Source: an uncultured Clostridia bacterium (GTDB taxonomy: Bacteria; Bacillota; Clostridia; Oscillospirales; Ruminococcaceae). Taken from it: a DNA stretch of 64,000 nt. The notes under the pieces were generated by a model. That model saw only the letters and a program-made list of their open reading frames with translations, made no database searches and had not been told where the DNA came from. The DNA is taken from positions 62,001-126,000 of the forward strand of contig CANRKB010000002.1 of the NCBI GenBank assembly GCA_947631115.1. The letters run 5' to 3'. Shown here piece after piece: positions 53,305-61,452 of the stretch; position 1 is the first letter of the stretch; each line of letters opens with the position of its first letter. The translations under genes were made by a program, and so were the position numbers.

Positions 53305-54216
53305 ATGAAACATTTATTGAAACTGCTCGATCTGAGTACTGAGGAGATAATTGACATACTTAATCTCGCGGATCAGCTCAAATACGAGCAAAAGCACGGT
53401 ATCCCTCACAACATTTTAAAGGGCATGACGCTGGGAATGATTTTCCAAAAGGCTTCTACAAGAACTCGCGTTTCCTTTGAAACGGGAATGTATCAGCTCG
53501 GCGGAAACGCGCTGTTCCTTTCTTCAAAGGAGCTTCAGATAGGGCGCGGAGAGCCTGTTCAGGACACTGCCCGCGTTCTCTCGCGCTATCTGAACGGAAT
53601 TATGATAAGAACGTTTGAACAGTCCGAGGTGGAAAATCTCGCGGAATTTGGTTCTATTCCCATAATAAACGGACTGACGGATTTTTGTCATCCCTGCCAG
53701 GTGCTTGCTGATTTACAGACGATACGCGAATACAAAAACAAGCTTGAAGGTCTGAACTTCTGCTATATAGGCGACGGAAACAATATGGCAAACTCTCTGA
53801 CGGTAGGTTGTCTTAAAGTTGGAATGAATGTTACACTCGCCTGCCCCGAGGGTTATTATCCCGACGAAAAGGTACTTGATTTTACAAGGGATTATGAAAA
53901 CTTCAAGATCGTAAACAGTCCTGTAGAGGCTGCCGCTGACGCGGACGTACTTTATACGGACGTATGGGCGTCTATGGGAATGGAAGACGAGGTAGAAAAG
54001 CGCAGGATTGCGTTTAAGGGCTATCAGATAAACGATGATGTTATGGCTTCGGCAAAATCCGACGCAATAGTTATGCACTGCCTGCCCGCACACCGTGAAG
54101 AAGAAATAACCTCTAAGGTATTTGAACAGCACGCAAAGGAGATCTTTGACGAGGCTGAAAACCGTCTGCACGCACAAAAAGCCGTTATGGTAAGGCTTAT
54201 GGCGAATGAGGGATAA
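53305..54216 (+). CDS. argF: Ornithine carbamoyltransferase
   Basis: The 303-residue enzyme has the carbamoyl phosphate motif KASTRTRVSFE, HPCQVLADL, and the ornithine-binding Cys in MHCLPAHR. The family also includes aspartate and putrescine carbamoyltransferases, but HCLPAHR and the arg context fix ornithine. It makes citrulline, the ArgG substrate, and closes the operon before a strong terminator. Confidence 0.95.
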   Translation: MKHLLKLLDLSTEEIIDILNLADQLKYEQKHGIPHNILKGMTLGMIFQKASTRTRVSFETGMYQLGGNALFLSSKELQIGRGEPVQDTARVLSRYLNGIMIRTFEQSEVENLAEFGSIPIINGLTDFCHPCQVLADLQTIREYKNKLEGLNFCYIGDGNNMANSLTVGCLKVGMNVTLACPEGYYPDEKVLDFTRDYENFKIVNSPVEAAADADVLYTDVWASMGMEDEVEKRRIAFKGYQINDDVMASAKSDAIVMHCLPAHREEEITSKVFEQHAKEIFDEAENRLHAQKAVMVRLMANEG

Positions 54217-54322: not shown

Positions 54323-54358
54323 ATCACCGAACGAATTTTTGTTCGGTGATTTTTTTTA
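54323..54358 (+). terminator. Terminator of the arg operon
   Basis: ATCACCGAAC (54323-54332) pairs perfectly with GTTCGGTGAT (54341-54350) and is followed by TTTTTTT. The T-run contains the stop codon region of a small minus-strand gene. Confidence 0.92.
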
Positions 54359-54535
54359 CTTTAATTTTGAAATCAAACTTGATATTATTCTCTTTTTTTC
54401 GTCGGAAGTGTATCCGTAAATCGCCTTGCGGACAGTGTAAACAAACAGCTTGTCAGTTTCGGATATCAGTCTTTTTAAAATATTTTCATCCGAAATATGT
54501 ACCACTGCGCTAATTTTCTTTAAATTATCCGTCAT
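54356..54535 (-). CDS. 59-residue protein upstream of the serine recombinase, unknown
   Basis: ATG at 54535-54533 on the minus strand follows AAGGGGG with 8-base spacing. The frame has 59 codons ending TAA at 54356. The sequence is basic and helical (DENILKRLISETDKL, KKRIISSLISKL) with no cysteine. It is divergent from the recombinase gene, separated by 78 bases. Small basic proteins beside large serine recombinases are often recombination directionality factors or regulators. That is only position-based inference. Its 3' end overlaps the argF terminator. Confidence 0.55.
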   Translation of the reverse strand: MTDNLKKISAVVHISDENILKRLISETDKLFVYTVRKAIYGYTSDEKKRIISSLISKLK

Positions 54536-54572
54536 ACTTAATGCCCCCTTGAAAGTATATTATGACAGCGGA

Positions 54573-54582
54573 CTTGTACAAG
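54573..54582. promoter_or_regulatory. Perfect palindrome in the recombinase intergenic region
   Basis: CTTGTACAAG is a 10-bp perfect palindrome between the 59-residue gene and the recombinase, 32 bases before the recombinase ATG. An operator is plausible; no assignment is possible. Confidence 0.3.
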
Positions 54583-54613
54583 ATTACGAGTTATTGTAAG
54601 AAAGAGGGGTAAT

Positions 54614-56200
54614 ATGAAAATTGCGGTTTATTCAAGAAAATCAAAATTTACGGGAAAGGGAGAAAGCATTGAAAATCAAGTTTCACTCTGCCGTGAATAT
54701 ATCAAAACGCACATTCCCGAAGCGTGCGACAGCGACATAAGAGTTTTCGAGGACGAGGGCTTTTCAGCCAAAAACCTCGACAGACCGCGCTTTAAAGAAA
54801 TGATGAAAATTGAAAACGAACAACCGTTTGATTATATCATAGTTTACAGGCTTGACAGAATAAGCAGGAATGTCGGCGATTTCGCAAATCTTATTGAAAA
54901 GCTGAACGAGCAAAAAACGAGCTTCGTCTGCATTAAAGAACAGTTTGATACTTCAACGCCCATGGGACGGGCTATGATGAATATTTCCGCCGTTTTTGCT
55001 CAACTTGAGCGGGAAACTATTGCGGAGCGCATACGCGACAACATTGTACTTTTAGCAAGAACAGGACGCTGGCTTGGAGGAATAACGCCGCTTGGATTTA
55101 CGGGAGAAAAGCTTGAAATAAAGGATTCTGAGGGAAAGCGGAGGTTTGTATACAGGCTGTCGCCTGTTAAAGAAGAAATTTCGAGGGTAAAGACGATTTA
55201 CGAAAAGTTTCTTGAATTTCATTCGCTGACTAAAACTACTTCATGGCTTATTGCAAACGGAATTAAGTCGCGCGGAGGGAATGACTTCCGCACAAGGACG
55301 GTAAGAGATATACTGAAAAATCCCGTTTACTGCACGGCAGATGAAAATTCGTTTTCGTATTTTAAAGAGCTTGGGTGCGACGTTTGCTTTACAAAAGATG
55401 AAATAAGCGGAAAGCGCGGTATAATGCCGTTTTGCAGGACAACTCAAAGCGGAAAGAAATCCCGCAGAACTTCTCCCGATGAATGGATAATCGCCCTCGG
55501 AAAGCACAAGGGAATAATAAGCTCGGAGGAATGGATAAGAGTTCAGAATTTGCTGGGGCAAAACGCTTCAAAAACATTTTACAAGCCGTCAAGAAACGAT
55601 GTTGCAATTTTTACGGGGCTTGTAAAATGCGGAAAATGCGGGCATAATATGCGCCCGCGCATTTACGGCAACAATACCTCTCCACGTTCTTTTTCATATA
55701 TGTGCGAATACAAGGAGCGCTCACACAAGACTAAATGCGATATGAAAAACGTAAGCGGAAACGAACTTGATAAAATCGTGTGCGGGGAAATATTGAAACT
55801 TGTGGAAATTAATAATTCGGTTAAGCATGAACTTAGCCTTTTGATAAAAAACATTCCCGAAACCGACAACTCGGCAGAAATCAAAAGTCGAATAGCTCAC
55901 AAAGAAAAAGAAATCTCAAAACTTATGCGCGCTTTTGCAGGCTCGGACAATACAACTTTCGGATATGCAGAAAGCGAGATAAAAAACCTTGGAAATGAAA
56001 TTAAAATGCTGGATGAAGAACTTTCACGCATTAAAATCAAGAAATCCGATAATTTGAATGTAGAAACTGTCGCTGAAGAATTACTGAAATTCAGCGATAG
56101 GTTTAATGAATTGCCGGTGGTTGAAAAACGGGAGTTTGTAAATAAGGTTGTCGAAAAAATCATTTGGGACGGCGAGAATGTCCATATTTATCTGAAATAA
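54614..56200 (+). CDS. Large serine recombinase
   Basis: The 528-residue protein has an N-terminal resolvase domain with the catalytic Ser10 in YSRKSK, IENQ, YRLDRISRN (catalytic Arg region) and FAQLERETIAERI. A recombinase domain (RGGNDFRTRTVRDILKNPVY) follows, then a zinc ribbon (CGKCGHNM with later CEYKERSHKTKC) and a C-terminal coiled coil. All catalytic parts are intact. This is the architecture of SpoIVCA, the skin-element recombinase, and of phage and Tn integrases. It lies 2.6 kb from a truncated sigma-K gene and points toward it. GAGGGG precedes the ATG. It is the only mobile-type gene in the region. Confidence 0.93.
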   Translation: MKIAVYSRKSKFTGKGESIENQVSLCREYIKTHIPEACDSDIRVFEDEGFSAKNLDRPRFKEMMKIENEQPFDYIIVYRLDRISRNVGDFANLIEKLNEQKTSFVCIKEQFDTSTPMGRAMMNISAVFAQLERETIAERIRDNIVLLARTGRWLGGITPLGFTGEKLEIKDSEGKRRFVYRLSPVKEEISRVKTIYEKFLEFHSLTKTTSWLIANGIKSRGGNDFRTRTVRDILKNPVYCTADENSFSYFKELGCDVCFTKDEISGKRGIMPFCRTTQSGKKSRRTSPDEWIIALGKHKGIISSEEWIRVQNLLGQNASKTFYKPSRNDVAIFTGLVKCGKCGHNMRPRIYGNNTSPRSFSYMCEYKERSHKTKCDMKNVSGNELDKIVCGEILKLVEINNSVKHELSLLIKNIPETDNSAEIKSRIAHKEKEISKLMRAFAGSDNTTFGYAESEIKNLGNEIKMLDEELSRIKIKKSDNLNVETVAEELLKFSDRFNELPVVEKREFVNKVVEKIIWDGENVHIYLK

Positions 56201-56224
56201 TTGTCAACTCTTTTATTGCGGTGG

Positions 56225-56253
56225 TTGACATTCAGTTTATCGGATGCTATAAT
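56225..56253 (+). promoter_or_regulatory. Sigma-A promoter of birA-bioY-bioB
   Basis: TTGACA at 56225-56230, 17 bases and TATAAT at 56248-56253, perfect consensus, 34 bases before the birA start. Confidence 0.85.
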
Positions 56254-56284
56254 TGTATACAAAGAACACTAAAGAGGTATACGA
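56253..56284 (+). promoter_or_regulatory. Candidate BirA biotin operator
   Basis: TTGTATAC (56253-56260) and GTATACGA (56277-56284) form an inverted repeat, 7 of 8 positions, separated by 16 bases. This matches the architecture known for BirA operators (TTGT-type half-sites separated by about 15 bases). It begins at the last base of the -10 box, so the holo-repressor would block transcription. Confidence 0.58.
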
Positions 56285-56286
56285 TC

Positions 56287-57279
56287 TTGACTATAAAAGA
56301 ACAAGTTCTTGAACTTCTCGAAGAAAACCGAAACAATTTTATTTCGGGCGAATATATAGCAAAGAAGCTTTTTTGTACAAGAGGAGCTGTCTGGAAATCA
56401 ATAAAGTCGCTTAGAAATGACGGATTTGAAATAAACGCCGTTACAAATCGCGGATATAAGCTCGGCGACAGCGGCGACGTCCTCAGCAAATCGGGTATAT
56501 GCCGATATTTAAAAAACGACTGTAATATCATTCTGCTCAAAACAGTAGGTTCAACAAACGCGTATCTTCATGAGCTTGCTATTAAAGGCGAAAAAGAAGG
56601 CACCATGATGATAGCGTCCGAGCAGACAAACGGTTATGGACGGCGCGGACGAAGTTTCTTCTCCCCTGCCGATACGGGGCTTTATTTAAGCATTTTGCTG
56701 CGCCCGAAATTCTCCGCAAAAGAGTCGGTTAAAATTACGGCAGCCGCGGCAGTCGCTGCCTGCGTCTCAATAGAAAATGTAACGGGAATAAAAACCGACA
56801 TAAAATGGGTGAACGATATTTTTTGTGTCGGGAAAAAAGTTGCGGGAATATCTACAGTTGCGGCTGTAAACATTGAAAACGGAATGTTTGATCATGTTGT
56901 TATAGGTATAGGAATAAACGTTTATTATCCGAAAGAGGGTTTCCCGACTGAAATATCTAAAACAGCTGGTGCGCTGCTGAAAGAAAACATTCCGAATATC
57001 AAGAACAAATTAGCAGCCGAATTCTATGACAGGTTTACGGAGCTTTATAAACAGCTTCCCGAATGTAGCGGGCTTATTGAATACAAAAAACGGCTTATGT
57101 GGCAGGGAGAAAAAATCAATATTTATTCTGGCGCTGACAATGAAACGGTCACTCCCGCGGTGTTGCTCGGAGTCGACGATAATTTCGCCCTTAAAGTGAG
57201 ATACGAAAACGGCAAGGAAGATGTAATTTATTCGGGCGAGATAAGTATAAGGAGAAAAAATGACAAAAGCAAAAAATAA
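56287..57279 (+). CDS. birA: Bifunctional biotin--protein ligase/biotin operon repressor
   Basis: The 330-residue protein has an N-terminal winged helix (residues 5-65, FISGEYIAKKLFCTRGAVWKSIKSL). The catalytic domain has VGSTNAYL, the adenylate loop GYGRRGRSF and KWVNDIF, and a C-terminal SH3-like part follows. It attaches biotin to carboxylases and represses biotin genes when loaded. TTG 56287 has AGAGGT 9 bases upstream; the frame opens further upstream into the recombinase tail without a start signal. It leads the biotin operon and is probably autoregulated. Confidence 0.92.
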   Translation: MTIKEQVLELLEENRNNFISGEYIAKKLFCTRGAVWKSIKSLRNDGFEINAVTNRGYKLGDSGDVLSKSGICRYLKNDCNIILLKTVGSTNAYLHELAIKGEKEGTMMIASEQTNGYGRRGRSFFSPADTGLYLSILLRPKFSAKESVKITAAAAVAACVSIENVTGIKTDIKWVNDIFCVGKKVAGISTVAAVNIENGMFDHVVIGIGINVYYPKEGFPTEISKTAGALLKENIPNIKNKLAAEFYDRFTELYKQLPECSGLIEYKKRLMWQGEKINIYSGADNETVTPAVLLGVDDNFALKVRYENGKEDVIYSGEISIRRKNDKSKK

Positions 57280-57841
57280 AACAGTTATGATCTGTATGTG
57301 CGCGATCTTTGCCGCGCTTATTGCAATAGGAGCGTTTATAAGAATACCTATCCCCTACATAAACGTTACGCTTCAAGTGTTTTTCGTGGTTCTTGCGGGT
57401 ATGCTTCTCGGAGGAAAATTCGGCGCATTGAGCGTTATTGTTTACGTTATGCTGGGGCTTATCGGCATTCCGATATTTACGGAGGGAGGGGGATTTTTCT
57501 ATATTCTTAAACCGACTTTTGGTTATCTGATAGGATTTATTGTAGGCGCTTATGTCACGGGAAAAATTGCAAACGCCGTACATAATCCGTCAATAAAACG
57601 GCTTCTCACTGCTGATTTTATAGGCGTTTTGATAATGTATGCATTTGGGGTAGTTTATTTTTATATGGCGTCCAATCTTTGGGTCGGGAATGGCGGAATA
57701 AGTATAGGAGATTGTTTGTTATACTGTTTTGTACTTCTTTTCCCTAAAGACCTCGCTATAAGCATATTAGCCGTAGTTATCTCAAAGCGGCTTATACCGT
57801 TAGTAAGGAAATATCAGGAGGTTGACAAAAATGATTGCTGA
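57260..57841 (+). CDS. bioY: Biotin ECF transporter S component BioY
   Basis: The 193-residue membrane protein has six helices and the BioY motif PYINVTLQVFFVVLAGMLLGG, then GLIGIPIF and GGFFYILKPTFGYLIGF. BioY captures biotin, alone or with the shared EcfT-EcfA module, which is not in the window. Its ATG lies inside the birA end (20-base overlap). Confidence 0.95.
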   Translation: MTKAKNKTVMICMCAIFAALIAIGAFIRIPIPYINVTLQVFFVVLAGMLLGGKFGALSVIVYVMLGLIGIPIFTEGGGFFYILKPTFGYLIGFIVGAYVTGKIANAVHNPSIKRLLTADFIGVLIMYAFGVVYFYMASNLWVGNGGISIGDCLLYCFVLLFPKDLAISILAVVISKRLIPLVRKYQEVDKNDC

Positions 57842-58817
57842 GCTGAAAGAAAAGGTCCTCGACGGAGAAAGTATCACACGAGAAGAAGCTGTTTCGCTTA
57901 TACACGCGCCGCTCGGAGAACTTTGCACATCGGCAAATGAAATAAGGCAGAAATTCTGCGGAAATATTTTCGATATGTGTACTATCATAAACGGGAAAAG
58001 CGGGTGCTGTTCGGAAAATTGCAAATATTGTGCGCAGTCTTCTAAAAGCAAAGCCAGACACGACGAATACCCGCTTCTAGATACAAAGGACATCGTAGAG
58101 CACGCATTGTACAATTATAAACAGGGGGTTTTAAGGTTTTCAATCGTATGTTCGGGCAAAAAACTTTCGAACAGCGAAGTTGACAGACTTTGCGAAAGCA
58201 TACGCGAAATAAAAAAGGCTTGTCCAATATCCGTATGCGTTTCGGCGGGTCTGCTTGATGAAAATAATTTCCGAAAGCTGAAAGATGCAGGCGTTACCCG
58301 CGTTCATAATAATCTTGAAACATCACGAAGATTTTTCCCGAAAATATGTACAACTCATACGTTTGACGACAAGCTGAAAACAATAATCGCCGCAAAAAAT
58401 GCGGGGCTTGAGGTATGCAGCGGCGGTATTATGGGAATAGGAGAAACTATGGATGACAGGATAGACTTGGCGCTTACTTTGCGAGAACTCGGCATTAAAT
58501 CTATTCCCGTAAATATCTTAAACCCTATAATCGGAATGCCGCTCGAAAGCTACAAAATAATGACCGATATAGAAGCGGCGCGTATAATTGCCATATTCCG
58601 ATTTATTAACCCAACCGCGCAAATTCGGCTTGCGGGAGGAAGAGGACTTTTGAGCGATATGGGAAAAACGCTTTTACTTTCGGGCGCAAACGCCGTAATA
58701 TCGGGAGATATGCTGACGACAAGCGGAGTTTCCGTTGAAAACGATATGAAAACGACAAAAGAGCTTGGGTTTGTTGTAAAGCTTAGCGACAAAGAAAATG
58801 TTTCCGTAACGGTGTAA
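57831..58817 (+). CDS. bioB: Biotin synthase
   Basis: The 328-residue radical SAM enzyme has the cluster motif CSENCKYC (C-x3-C-x2-C), AQSSKSK, GGIMGIGETMDDRIDLA and the second-cluster Arg region INPTAQIRLAGGR. It inserts sulfur into dethiobiotin. ATG 57831 with AGGAGG at 57816-57821 overlaps bioY by 11 bases. No bioA, bioD or bioF is present here, so it may use imported dethiobiotin or genes elsewhere. Its stop codon lies 4 bases from the point where the antisense sigma-K gene loses homology. Confidence 0.94.
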   Translation: MIAELKEKVLDGESITREEAVSLIHAPLGELCTSANEIRQKFCGNIFDMCTIINGKSGCCSENCKYCAQSSKSKARHDEYPLLDTKDIVEHALYNYKQGVLRFSIVCSGKKLSNSEVDRLCESIREIKKACPISVCVSAGLLDENNFRKLKDAGVTRVHNNLETSRRFFPKICTTHTFDDKLKTIIAAKNAGLEVCSGGIMGIGETMDDRIDLALTLRELGIKSIPVNILNPIIGMPLESYKIMTDIEAARIIAIFRFINPTAQIRLAGGRGLLSDMGKTLLLSGANAVISGDMLTTSGVSVENDMKTTKELGFVVKLSDKENVSVTV

Positions 58818-59172
58818 TAGGATTATCAATACATCTGGAAGCATAAGTGGAAAATTTGTTGTTTTTTAGCGGATCAAACGTTTCTGCGGCTCGAATAAGT
58901 CCTATTGTTCCAATGGAAACAAGGTCGTCTATATCGGAAAAATCGGGATACTTTTTGTTTACGATATATGCCACCAGCCTCAGATTATGAACTATCAGCT
59001 TGTCGCGGGCTTCTTTTTTTTCTTCCACGGTACATTCGGGAGAAGCCATTGTTTTCAGACAGCGTTGTTCTTCTTTTGCGGAGAGCTGTTTGGGAAAGTT
59101 GTTTTTCCCCTCAAAATGCAATCCGAAAAACAAAATGTTTTCAAGCGCAAGTTTCACTATCAACCAAATCAT
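58783..59172 (-). CDS. sigK: N-terminal fragment of pro-sigma-K (SpoIVCB-like), interrupted at the skin position
   Basis: The 129-codon frame has a hydrophobic pro-sequence (residues 1-20, MIWLIVKLALENILFFG), then NNFPKQLSAKEEQ, HNLRLVAYIV, DLVSIGTIGLIRA and STYASRCIDN, all sigma-K region 2 features. After Asn117 homology stops; PITPLRKHFLCR is antisense to bioB. Full sigma-K is about 230-240 residues with regions 3 and 4, which are absent. In B. subtilis the skin element, as I recall, interrupts the gene at the matching Asn of CIEN. AAAGGA precedes the ATG. It is either half of a gene restored by excision in the mother cell or a relic. Confidence 0.85.
   Translation of the reverse strand: MIWLIVKLALENILFFGLHFEGKNNFPKQLSAKEEQRCLKTMASPECTVEEKKEARDKLIVHNLRLVAYIVNKKYPDFSDIDDLVSIGTIGLIRAAETFDPLKNNKFSTYASRCIDNPITPLRKHFLCR
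58802..58840. other. Candidate recombination attachment site at the sigK break
   Basis: The homology break lies between 58821 and 58822. An imperfect dyad surrounds it: TAAT (58815-58818) and ATTA (58822-58825) around AGG, with outer TTCC (58802-58805) and GGAA (58837-58840). About 40 bp with weak dyad symmetry is the usual form of serine recombinase attachment sites. The exact core cannot be fixed without the partner site. Confidence 0.4.
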
Positions 59173-59270: not shown

Positions 59271-60773
59271 TTATTTATTGTTTTTCTGGTTTTTGTCAAA
59301 CTTATCAAACATATGCTTTTTGGGTATTTCAGGAGAAGTTTCCGAATATTCCGGAGCTTCAAACCAGAACTTACTTCCCTTTCCGAGACTGCTTTCAGCG
59401 CCGTATTTAAACCCGTGCTGTTCGAGTACGCTCTTTACTATTGAAAGCCCTATACCGCTGCCCATTTTAGCTCGCTTATGGGTAGAAGAACGCTCGCTGA
59501 CTTTATAGTATCTGTCCCAGATATACGGCAGATTTTCGGGCGAAATTCCCTCTCCGTGATCTTCGACCTCAAACCGCACAATTCCGTTTTGTTTTCTGAA
59601 AAGTCTTACTATTATTATATTGTCTTCTCCAACATAAGTAACAGCGTTGTTTATAAGATTGTATATGACCTGGTCAAGCTTTGTTACATCAGCGTATATC
59701 AATATATTATCCTCCGCCTGTAATTCAATGGAAATGCCCTCGTTAATTCTTATGACTTCAAAACGCGATACGACTTCGGAAATGTTATCGGACAGATCGA
59801 ACGTTTCTATATTAAGCTCGGAAACGCCCGCCTGCAGCTTTGAAAGATCGAGTATATCCGTTACAAGAGAAGAAAGTCTGTCTGTTTCATCTATAATAAC
59901 TTTAAGATGTTTTTCGCGTTTTTCGGGATTATCTCCCGATATATCGCGTATCATTTCGGCATAAGCCTTTATCATGGTCAAAGGAGTACGAAGATCGTGA
60001 GAAATATTCGACATAAGCTCGCGGCGCAGATCGTCGGATTTTGCTATTTCCTTTGAGGCGTCCGATAGCGTTTCTGCAAGCTGTTTTATTTCATCATAAT
60101 CGCGCTTTCCTATTTTAACGTCAAATTTTCCCTGCGAAAGACTTTTTGCGGAGTTGTTTATCCTAATAATCGGCTCTGATACTTTATTTGAGAAAATCGC
60201 GGACATAAATATCGTAAGTATCATTATCAACAGTCCGACAATATAAAATTGGCTCTGGAATATTTGTACTGTCGTACCTATAGGCTGAAGATAATTGAAT
60301 ATAAAAATATAAGAATCGGGAGAATATTTGTTGCCGCCGAGATAACTTCCCAGCATAAGAATGAAATTGTTTTCCTGTTCGTCACGGAACGTTTTGTATA
60401 TAAGACCCGATTCCGAATTTTTTACACTTTCAATAAAATCGTCTTTTGAAAGCATAGACAACGAATGACTTCCGCCGAGTCTGTTTATGATATAAGTAGT
60501 ACTGTCCTCGTAGATGATCTCGATAAACATCTTTTTGTCAGACGCCTGTTTTACGACAATGTTCTGCATATGATTACTGATATACGTCTCATCGTCTTCG
60601 CTCCATTCAGAACTTATCTTTGCAAACGTTTCGCTTATTTCATACCGTTTCATCCAACCGTAATACAGCGGAAACATAGCTATAAGGAAAATATAAGTAA
60701 AAGCCAGCATTGCAATAACGATGATTTCAAATCTCGCCCAGACTCTGACTTTTATGCTACGGAAAAAATTCAT
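59271..60773 (-). CDS. Membrane sensor histidine kinase
   Basis: The 500-residue protein has a first helix at about 17-38, an extracytoplasmic sensor domain to about 170, a second helix, then HAMP (PIIRINNSAKSLSQGKFDVKIG in part). HisKA has the phosphoacceptor His in NISHDLRTPL, and HATPase has N, DHGEGIS, GSGIGLSI and G2-box residues. It is a complete kinase of the EnvZ/PhoR type. It lies 1 base after its response regulator. The signal is unknown. Next in line downstream is the sigK fragment, beyond a terminator. Confidence 0.93.
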   Translation of the reverse strand: MNFFRSIKVRVWARFEIIVIAMLAFTYIFLIAMFPLYYGWMKRYEISETFAKISSEWSEDDETYISNHMQNIVVKQASDKKMFIEIIYEDSTTYIINRLGGSHSLSMLSKDDFIESVKNSESGLIYKTFRDEQENNFILMLGSYLGGNKYSPDSYIFIFNYLQPIGTTVQIFQSQFYIVGLLIMILTIFMSAIFSNKVSEPIIRINNSAKSLSQGKFDVKIGKRDYDEIKQLAETLSDASKEIAKSDDLRRELMSNISHDLRTPLTMIKAYAEMIRDISGDNPEKREKHLKVIIDETDRLSSLVTDILDLSKLQAGVSELNIETFDLSDNISEVVSRFEVIRINEGISIELQAEDNILIYADVTKLDQVIYNLINNAVTYVGEDNIIIVRLFRKQNGIVRFEVEDHGEGISPENLPYIWDRYYKVSERSSTHKRAKMGSGIGLSIVKSVLEQHGFKYGAESSLGKGSKFWFEAPEYSETSPEIPKKHMFDKFDKNQKNNK

Positions 60774-60774
60774 T

Positions 60775-61452
60775 TTAAACCTCGAATTTATACCCCAATC
60801 CGCGCAGAGTTACTATAAATTTTCTATATGGACCAAGATTGTTTCTGAGCATTTTTATATGCGTATCAATTGTTCTGTCATCGCCGAAAAAGTCATATCC
60901 CCATACTTCTTCGAGAAGTTTGTTTCTTGTAAGCGCAATATTTTTATTTCTTACAAGATAGAACAAAAGATCGTATTCCTTTGGCGTCAGATTTGCTTTA
61001 ACTCCGTCGATATAAACATTTCTTGAAACAAAGTTTATTTCAAGCCCCTCAAACTTTTCCGTATCTGACGACGACGTTTGAGCAGAAGCAGTTGAATTTC
61101 GCTTTACTATTGCATTTATTCTCGCCATAACTTCCTTTGGCGAAAACGGTTTAACAACATAATCGTCAATACCTATCTCAAAACCGAACAGCTTGTCGTA
61201 TTCTTCTCCGCGCGCCGACAGCATCATAACAGGTGTTTGTTTATATTTTCTTATTTCCTTGCAGGCAGAATAGCCGTCGAGCCTCGGCATCATGATGTCC
61301 ATTATTATTATATCATAATCCTTTGCCTTTGCCATTTCTATTGCCTGCATGCCGTCGCTTGCTTCGTCAACCTCGTGACCTTCAAATTCGGCATATTCCT
61401 TTATAACCTCGCGGATATGCTCTTCATCATCAACAACAAGTATTTTATACAC
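60775..61452 (-). CDS. OmpR/PhoB-family response regulator
   Basis: The 225-residue protein has an N-terminal receiver with DDEEHIRE, the phosphoacceptor Asp in IIIMDIMMPRLDG, Ser in MLSARG and Lys in VVKPFSP. The C-terminal winged helix has LTPKEYDLLFYLV and RTIDTHIKMLRNNLG. It pairs with the histidine kinase that follows. Its leader (61453-61600) contains a structured element described separately. Confidence 0.95.
   Translation of the reverse strand: MYKILVVDDEEHIREVIKEYAEFEGHEVDEASDGMQAIEMAKAKDYDIIIMDIMMPRLDGYSACKEIRKYKQTPVMMLSARGEEYDKLFGFEIGIDDYVVKPFSPKEVMARINAIVKRNSTASAQTSSSDTEKFEGLEINFVSRNVYIDGVKANLTPKEYDLLFYLVRNKNIALTRNKLLEEVWGYDFFGDDRTIDTHIKMLRNNLGPYRKFIVTLRGLGYKFEV

Follow-up and report, generated by a model that had tools for sequence, protein, structure and literature searches.

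In Bacillus subtilis the late sporulation gene sigK is interrupted by skin, a prophage-like element that lies between its two halves, and in the mother cell the large serine recombinase (LSR) SpoIVCA rebuilds the gene, which is thus healed in the chromosome. In the skin element of Clostridioides difficile, the LSR CD1231 and the recombination directionality factor (RDF) CD1234 also lie between the halves and leave as an attP circle, and attB, the rebuilt sigK, stays in the chromosome (PMC5025042). Here we describe a split sigK in a 64,000-nucleotide stretch of the genome (G000) of an uncultured Ruminococcaceae bacterium. This stretch, called the window, is C2:62001–126000 of an assembly of 2.06 Mb in 60 contigs, and coordinates without a contig prefix are window positions. 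The arrangement resembles skin with its inside facing out, and the predicted outcome of joining is opposite to that of the sigK elements known so far. From the sequence we put at about two in three the probability that it is an inside-out, sigK-splitting LSR system, in which the predicted joining reaction would free sigK on a circle together with core genes.

Organization of the split sigK locus

The preliminary description of the window, made from its letters alone, had read a minus-strand sigma-K frame that keeps the pro-sequence and region 2 as far as CIDN and then runs antisense to bioB, and the open reading frame (58783–59172, minus strand) and its profile matches bear this out. The frame matches SigK models over the N-terminal half only (NCBIfam NF004471, E 2e-30, 105.7 bits; TIGR02846, E 4e-29), with 105.7 bits for SigK against 88.4 bits for the best SigE model. 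Similarity to sigma-K stops past ...YASRCIDN at 58822, that is, after codon 117. The N-half of sigK (58822–59172, minus strand) therefore comprises codons 1–117, with the pro-sequence and region 2, and beyond 58822 the frame, which stays open to 58783, is antisense to the 3' end of bioB (57822–58817). The earlier account was also right in placing near this border an intact LSR convergent with sigK (54614–56200, plus strand; 528 amino acids, with the Pfam domains Resolvase, Recombinase and Zn_ribbon_recom in an open frame), a tiny gene divergent from the LSR (54356–54535, minus strand; 59 amino acids), and birA, bioY and bioB (56164–58817, plus strand) between the LSR and the border.

The C-terminal half of sigK had been expected outside the window, and a search of the same genome with SigK models located it on the same contig, 42 kb past the window, at C2:167729–168094 (minus strand; 115.2 bits for SigK against 82.8 for SigE). 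No full-length sigK was found in this search of the assembly; the sole full-length match, at C9:64619, proved to be SigE, with 348.9 bits as compared with 258.6 bits for SigK. With a C-half present and a second, complete sigK not found in this genome, the outcomes named in the preliminary description as contrary to its reading did not come about. Both halves are on the same strand, the 3' end of the N-half facing lower coordinates and the 5' end of the C-half facing higher ones. For a minus-strand gene such facing is the wrong order: the segment bounded by the two AA cores, 47,273 bp long, has a half of the gene just inside each of its ends. The C-half sits on the promoter side of sigK, not beyond the recombinase, and the LSR is outside the segment between the halves.

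The break coincides with a hybrid attachment half-site (58796–58824, minus strand), consisting of the core AA (58823–58824) and an outer P'-type arm (58796–58822). The arm of the N-half, read outward after the AA of GATAAT, is TCCTATTACACCGTTACGGAAACATTT, and the outer arm of the C-half (C2:168098–168124), reverse-complemented, is AGCAATTACACCCTAACGGAAACATTT. These two 27-nt arms mirror each other about the shared AA, agreeing at 22 of 27 positions in register, and none of 10,000 shuffles was as good; the break in sigK is therefore not a matter of chance. Mirror matches of 22 were obtained in G012, 20 in G005, and 18 each in G009, G065 and G006, against shuffle means of 7–8 of 27; G063 gave 19 and G019 18. 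In every species tested except G033 no more than one shuffle in 10,000 was as good. The attP of a serine recombinase is expected to be symmetric around the central dinucleotide (PMC5595907). Both arms lie outside the 47-kb segment, on the side of the LSR, the P-type arms pointing outward. Joining at the AA yields ...ASRCIDN|QIKMHFRK... with no stop in nine of the nine species tested (G028, which also has both halves, was left out of the test), and the joined sigma-K has 239 residues in seven species of the G000 group; the aligned length is 229 residues in G019 and 230 in G063. No tRNA gene was found in C2:112000–171999, the region that holds the segment.

The 47-kb block

In two outgroup genomes, G034 (on a 418-kb contig) and G017, the 47-kb block is colinear, with spoVT at one end, then polC and the his genes, and at the other end a sensor kinase gene that abuts argF, and sigK lies elsewhere (at C1:357k in G034 and on contig C8 in G017). 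The block is therefore native core chromosome. A mobile element, prophage or island was considered for this segment and rejected on the same grounds. The order of the block is the same in G036, with a 2-kb gap before argF; in G001 the sensor kinase gene and argF are adjacent and the block is on two contigs; and in G031 and G019 genes other than argF follow the sensor kinase gene.

In the genome studied here, the first genes of the native block on the N-half side encode the sensor kinase and a response regulator (59271–61452, minus strand; identified by Pfam), and the block extends beyond the window to C2:168097; argF (53305–54216, plus strand) is the outer neighbour. The interval exactly between the sensor kinase gene and argF is where, in the G000 group, the N-half and its arm are found, along with the biotin genes, the LSR and the small partner of the LSR; the C-half, together with a MATE gene, is just outside spoVT. 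The genes of the block include polC, ispG, rseP, dxr, frr, pyrH, hisD and those for fructose-bisphosphate aldolase, alanine racemase, an amidase and a SpoVT-like protein (its match is slightly under the model cut-off), and several of them are presumably essential.

The preliminary description had taken this locus for one end of a sigK-intervening element. An LSR attachment site does mark the split, and the recombinase is part of the system, but 58822 is not an ordinary element border. Nor is this an ordinary element, with the recombinase between the halves, whose loss leaves a healed sigK in the chromosome: the order is swapped, the halves occupy the inner ends of a native core block, and the P-type arms and the LSR are outside it.

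Distribution of the split gene

The search for sigK covered 61 genomes, 37 of them of the genus, and a second set of nine from the genus that added six new ones, giving 43 genomes of the genus. An LSR orthologue (E <= 1e-70) is present in 14 of the 43, and 13 of these 14 contain sigK halves; G064, whose LSR is 42% identical, has an intact sigK. The LSR orthologue adjoins N-halves in other genomes, as in the window. The swapped order is found on a single contig in G000, G005, G009 and G065, with spans of 47–59 kb and the sites as direct repeats, and can be deduced from flanking genes in G002 (N-half only), G006 and G012. Two genomes, G063 (6.7 kb) and G019 (39 kb), have the conventional order, with the LSR between the halves. 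G030 and G003, in which there is an N-half only, and G028, whose halves are on two contigs, were left untyped in these counts. The 30 other genomes comprise 24 in which sigK is whole or cut only by a contig end (incomplete in G017, G023, G026 and G029), two with C-halves only (G004 and G031) and four with only a sigma-E-like match (G007, G018, G021 and G035).

G022 has an intact sigK and no LSR match; the sensor kinase gene is upstream of it and the MATE gene and spoVT are downstream. This order, sensor kinase–N|C–MATE–spoVT, is the junction that the model predicts. In a PolC tree (33 rows) G022 groups with G006 and G012 (91/86, below star level), inside a group of nine species (100/100), and the PolC proteins of G022 (C68), G006 (C89) and G012 (C49) are without about residues 412–608, an exonuclease-like part in the window's species. 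Of 22 outgroup loci, 11 have a glycosyl-hydrolase-like gene (Pfam GHL10), here called gene X, no more than 1.5 kb from spoVT, and so do six of seven split loci, G033 being the exception; in its place G022 has an MBOAT gene, found there in none of the 22 outgroup loci. The possibility that G022 represents the ancestral intact state was rejected because of the MBOAT gene in the place of gene X and the PolC gap held in common with G006 and G012; most likely, G022 went through a split stage before its sigK was joined. Its contigs with carB and the amidase gene are too short for the way in which the block was rejoined to be read. The split state is kept in all of the nine group species except G022.

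Predicted recombination and alternative explanations

In the resting chromosome sigK would be off, with its promoter and N-half at one end of the 47-kb block and its C-half at the other. The LSR and the small putative directionality factor would bring about an exchange between the hybrid half-sites at their shared AA, presumably in the terminal mother cell, so that CIDN would be joined to QIKM and a 239-codon sigK restored. As the sites are direct repeats with their host halves inward, the restored gene, with its promoter, would land on the 47,273-bp circle together with polC, frr, pyrH, dxr, ispG and the his genes, and attP, the LSR and the remaining chromosome of about 2 Mb would close on themselves, sealed at attP. 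Such a reaction would be harmless only in a terminal cell, as the products of the mother cell need no inheritance; a growing cell would probably lose the circle and every gene on it, and should die of that loss. This cost may be what holds the split state in place by selection. We favour, with slightly less assurance than the inside-out system itself, the reading that the terminal mother cell breaks up its core chromosome in a programmed way, giving a 47–59-kb circle with the rebuilt sigK, polC and other core genes and a remainder of about 2 Mb, and that the arrangement has been kept since the group ancestor because accidental healing would deprive a growing cell of the genes on the circle.

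Several observations weigh against this picture. All of the genomes are drafts, in which the chromosome between the outer ends of the block is not closed. G033, which has the same outer neighbours, shows a local inversion in the block and has its halves on separate contigs, so that it was counted as neither swapped nor conventional, and its arms match less well (15/27, with 17 of 10,000 shuffles as good). An attP scar after def was looked for in G022 and not found. Scans of viral contigs with one attP and one attB pattern gave no match, a result that says little. Furthermore, the likeness of the sigK promoter to a sigma-E promoter was judged by eye.

Among the alternatives, the one that fares best, an unlikely one all the same, is that the same LSR rebuilds sigK away from any circle, by joining two copies of the chromosome or after the sites have been reordered by a further rearrangement. 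Any pair of such sites can in principle recombine, and the inversion and separate halves of G033 would suit this explanation. However, the sites are direct repeats 47–59 kb apart on one contig in four genomes, and for direct repeats deletion into a circle is the simplest recombination product.

We consider it still less likely that sigK is a dead relic in species that no longer use sigma-K, an option that the preliminary description had kept and with which the presence of sigK in two parts in every readable LSR-bearing member would agree. Between split species dN/dS is 0.03–0.11 for the N-half and 0.02–0.07 for the C-half (Nei–Gojobori method, own script; given where dS was computable, several pairs being saturated), values that point to purifying selection on both halves even though synonymous sites are near saturation between subgroups. 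The arms, the LSR (dN/dS 0.12–0.13 between split species) and the small partner are conserved as well, and SpoIIID and SpoIVA, both above their cut-offs, and SigE are present. Ahead of the N-half, a block that resembles the sigma-E promoter consensus and a ribosome site are, as judged by eye, largely conserved across nine species.

That the two halves act as separate polypeptides, forming a two-part sigma factor without any joining of DNA, would account for both being open and conserved, but it appears very improbable: inspection by eye showed that in none of seven cases does a ribosome-binding site precede the C-half's first ATG, the sequence there being an attachment arm, the LSR has been retained, and G022 has a joined gene. 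An assembly artefact hardly deserves consideration, even with draft metagenome assemblies of which two (G005 and G009) are from one project, since four separate assemblies have the swapped order on single contigs, one of 407 kb, G002, G006 and G012 (the last from another project) have matching neighbours on the outer as well as the inner side, and the block itself is colinear in the outgroups.

The recombinase, its partner and neighbouring genes

Serine 10 of the LSR corresponds in position to the residue named as the catalytic serine of CD1231 (PMC5025042). An order-wide search at E <= 1e-140 found the LSR in 3 of 394 genomes, of which two belong to this genus and the third to another family. 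In another family, G355 C115 (L221) carries an LSR 47% identical to that of the window, followed by a sigma C-half that is 49% identical to the one described here. The LSR of G033 C135 (L167) is 90% identical to that of the window (dS 0.43), and the N-half is far more diverged (dS 1.6); this disparity suggests that the recombinase was exchanged between species.

Homologues of the 59-amino-acid protein were found on the LSR contig in 12 of the 13 split species, including the conventional G019 and G063, by a hidden Markov model built from six proteins, so that 6 of its 13 hits are building sequences; the exception is G028, with an LSR contig of 7.5 kb. A further homologue stands beside a spare C-half in G015. 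These proteins are 59–66 amino acids long and gave no PHROGs function match. In C. difficile, CD1234 is needed for excision and not for integration (PMC5025042), and by its position and by analogy with CD1234 the 59-amino-acid protein is a candidate directionality factor.

The biotin genes are passengers that vary among species, bioY and bioB not being found beside the LSR in G006 and G012. On the other side, a GntR regulator gene and ABC-transporter genes (C2:168302–173174; L017, L018) lie between the C-half arm and def. They are present there in G000, G005, G009, G033 and G065; in G006 and G012 the arm comes directly after def.

Spare C-halves or fragments occur additionally in G011, G014, G015, G017 and G062. 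G015 has seven spare C-halves (C13, L077–L080; C41, L081; C5, L082) beside an intact sigK, and G031 has four (C7 and C19, L083–L085) with no N-half found; most of those in G015 and G031 have a P-type arm in front. They may be elements that each bring along a C-half, or they may form a reserve of alternative C-halves. LSR fragments beside C-halves or just behind an intact sigK, in G011 (C55, L213), G062 (C122 and C38, L218 and L219) and G019 (C4 near 28.8k, L072), are remains of earlier elements.

Comparison with known systems

The open-access literature on elements in sigK, spsM, gerE and yabG, as far as titles and the openings of abstracts go and with subscription papers outside the scope, yielded no description of swapped halves. 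If the proposed mechanism is correct, the mother cell tolerates the division of its chromosome into two parts, split sporulation genes may be retained because growing cells come to depend on the split state, and the recombinase of a mobile element is now purely a developmental switch, with no element left.

The system resembles skin of B. subtilis in having a sigma-K with a pro-sequence and, as predicted here, a mother-cell LSR that rebuilds sigK, and differs in that skin has the classical order and chromosomal healing. With C. difficile skin it has in common that sigK is split by an LSR, the hybrid attL/attR sites, the small partner of the LSR, encoded in C. difficile on the element, and the reconstruction of sigK by joining (PMC5025042). 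In contrast, the LSR is outside the halves, and the predicted circle carries sigK and core genes. G063 (6.7 kb) and G019 (39 kb) are closer, with an LSR 59–60% identical, a homologous partner, the cut after CIDN and mirror arms of 19/27 and 18/27, respectively, but they have the LSR between the halves and the classical order. SPbeta in spsM, gin in gerE and yin in yabG are likewise gene-intervening elements of sporulation genes, with other targets, and in each, as far as these articles indicate, the element that departs is foreign and the gene becomes whole again within the chromosome (PMC4191935, PMC10747680, PMC5595907). Thus, in all of these listed sporulation rearrangements a foreign element exits and the gene remains chromosomal, whereas here the gene itself would exit, together with core genes.

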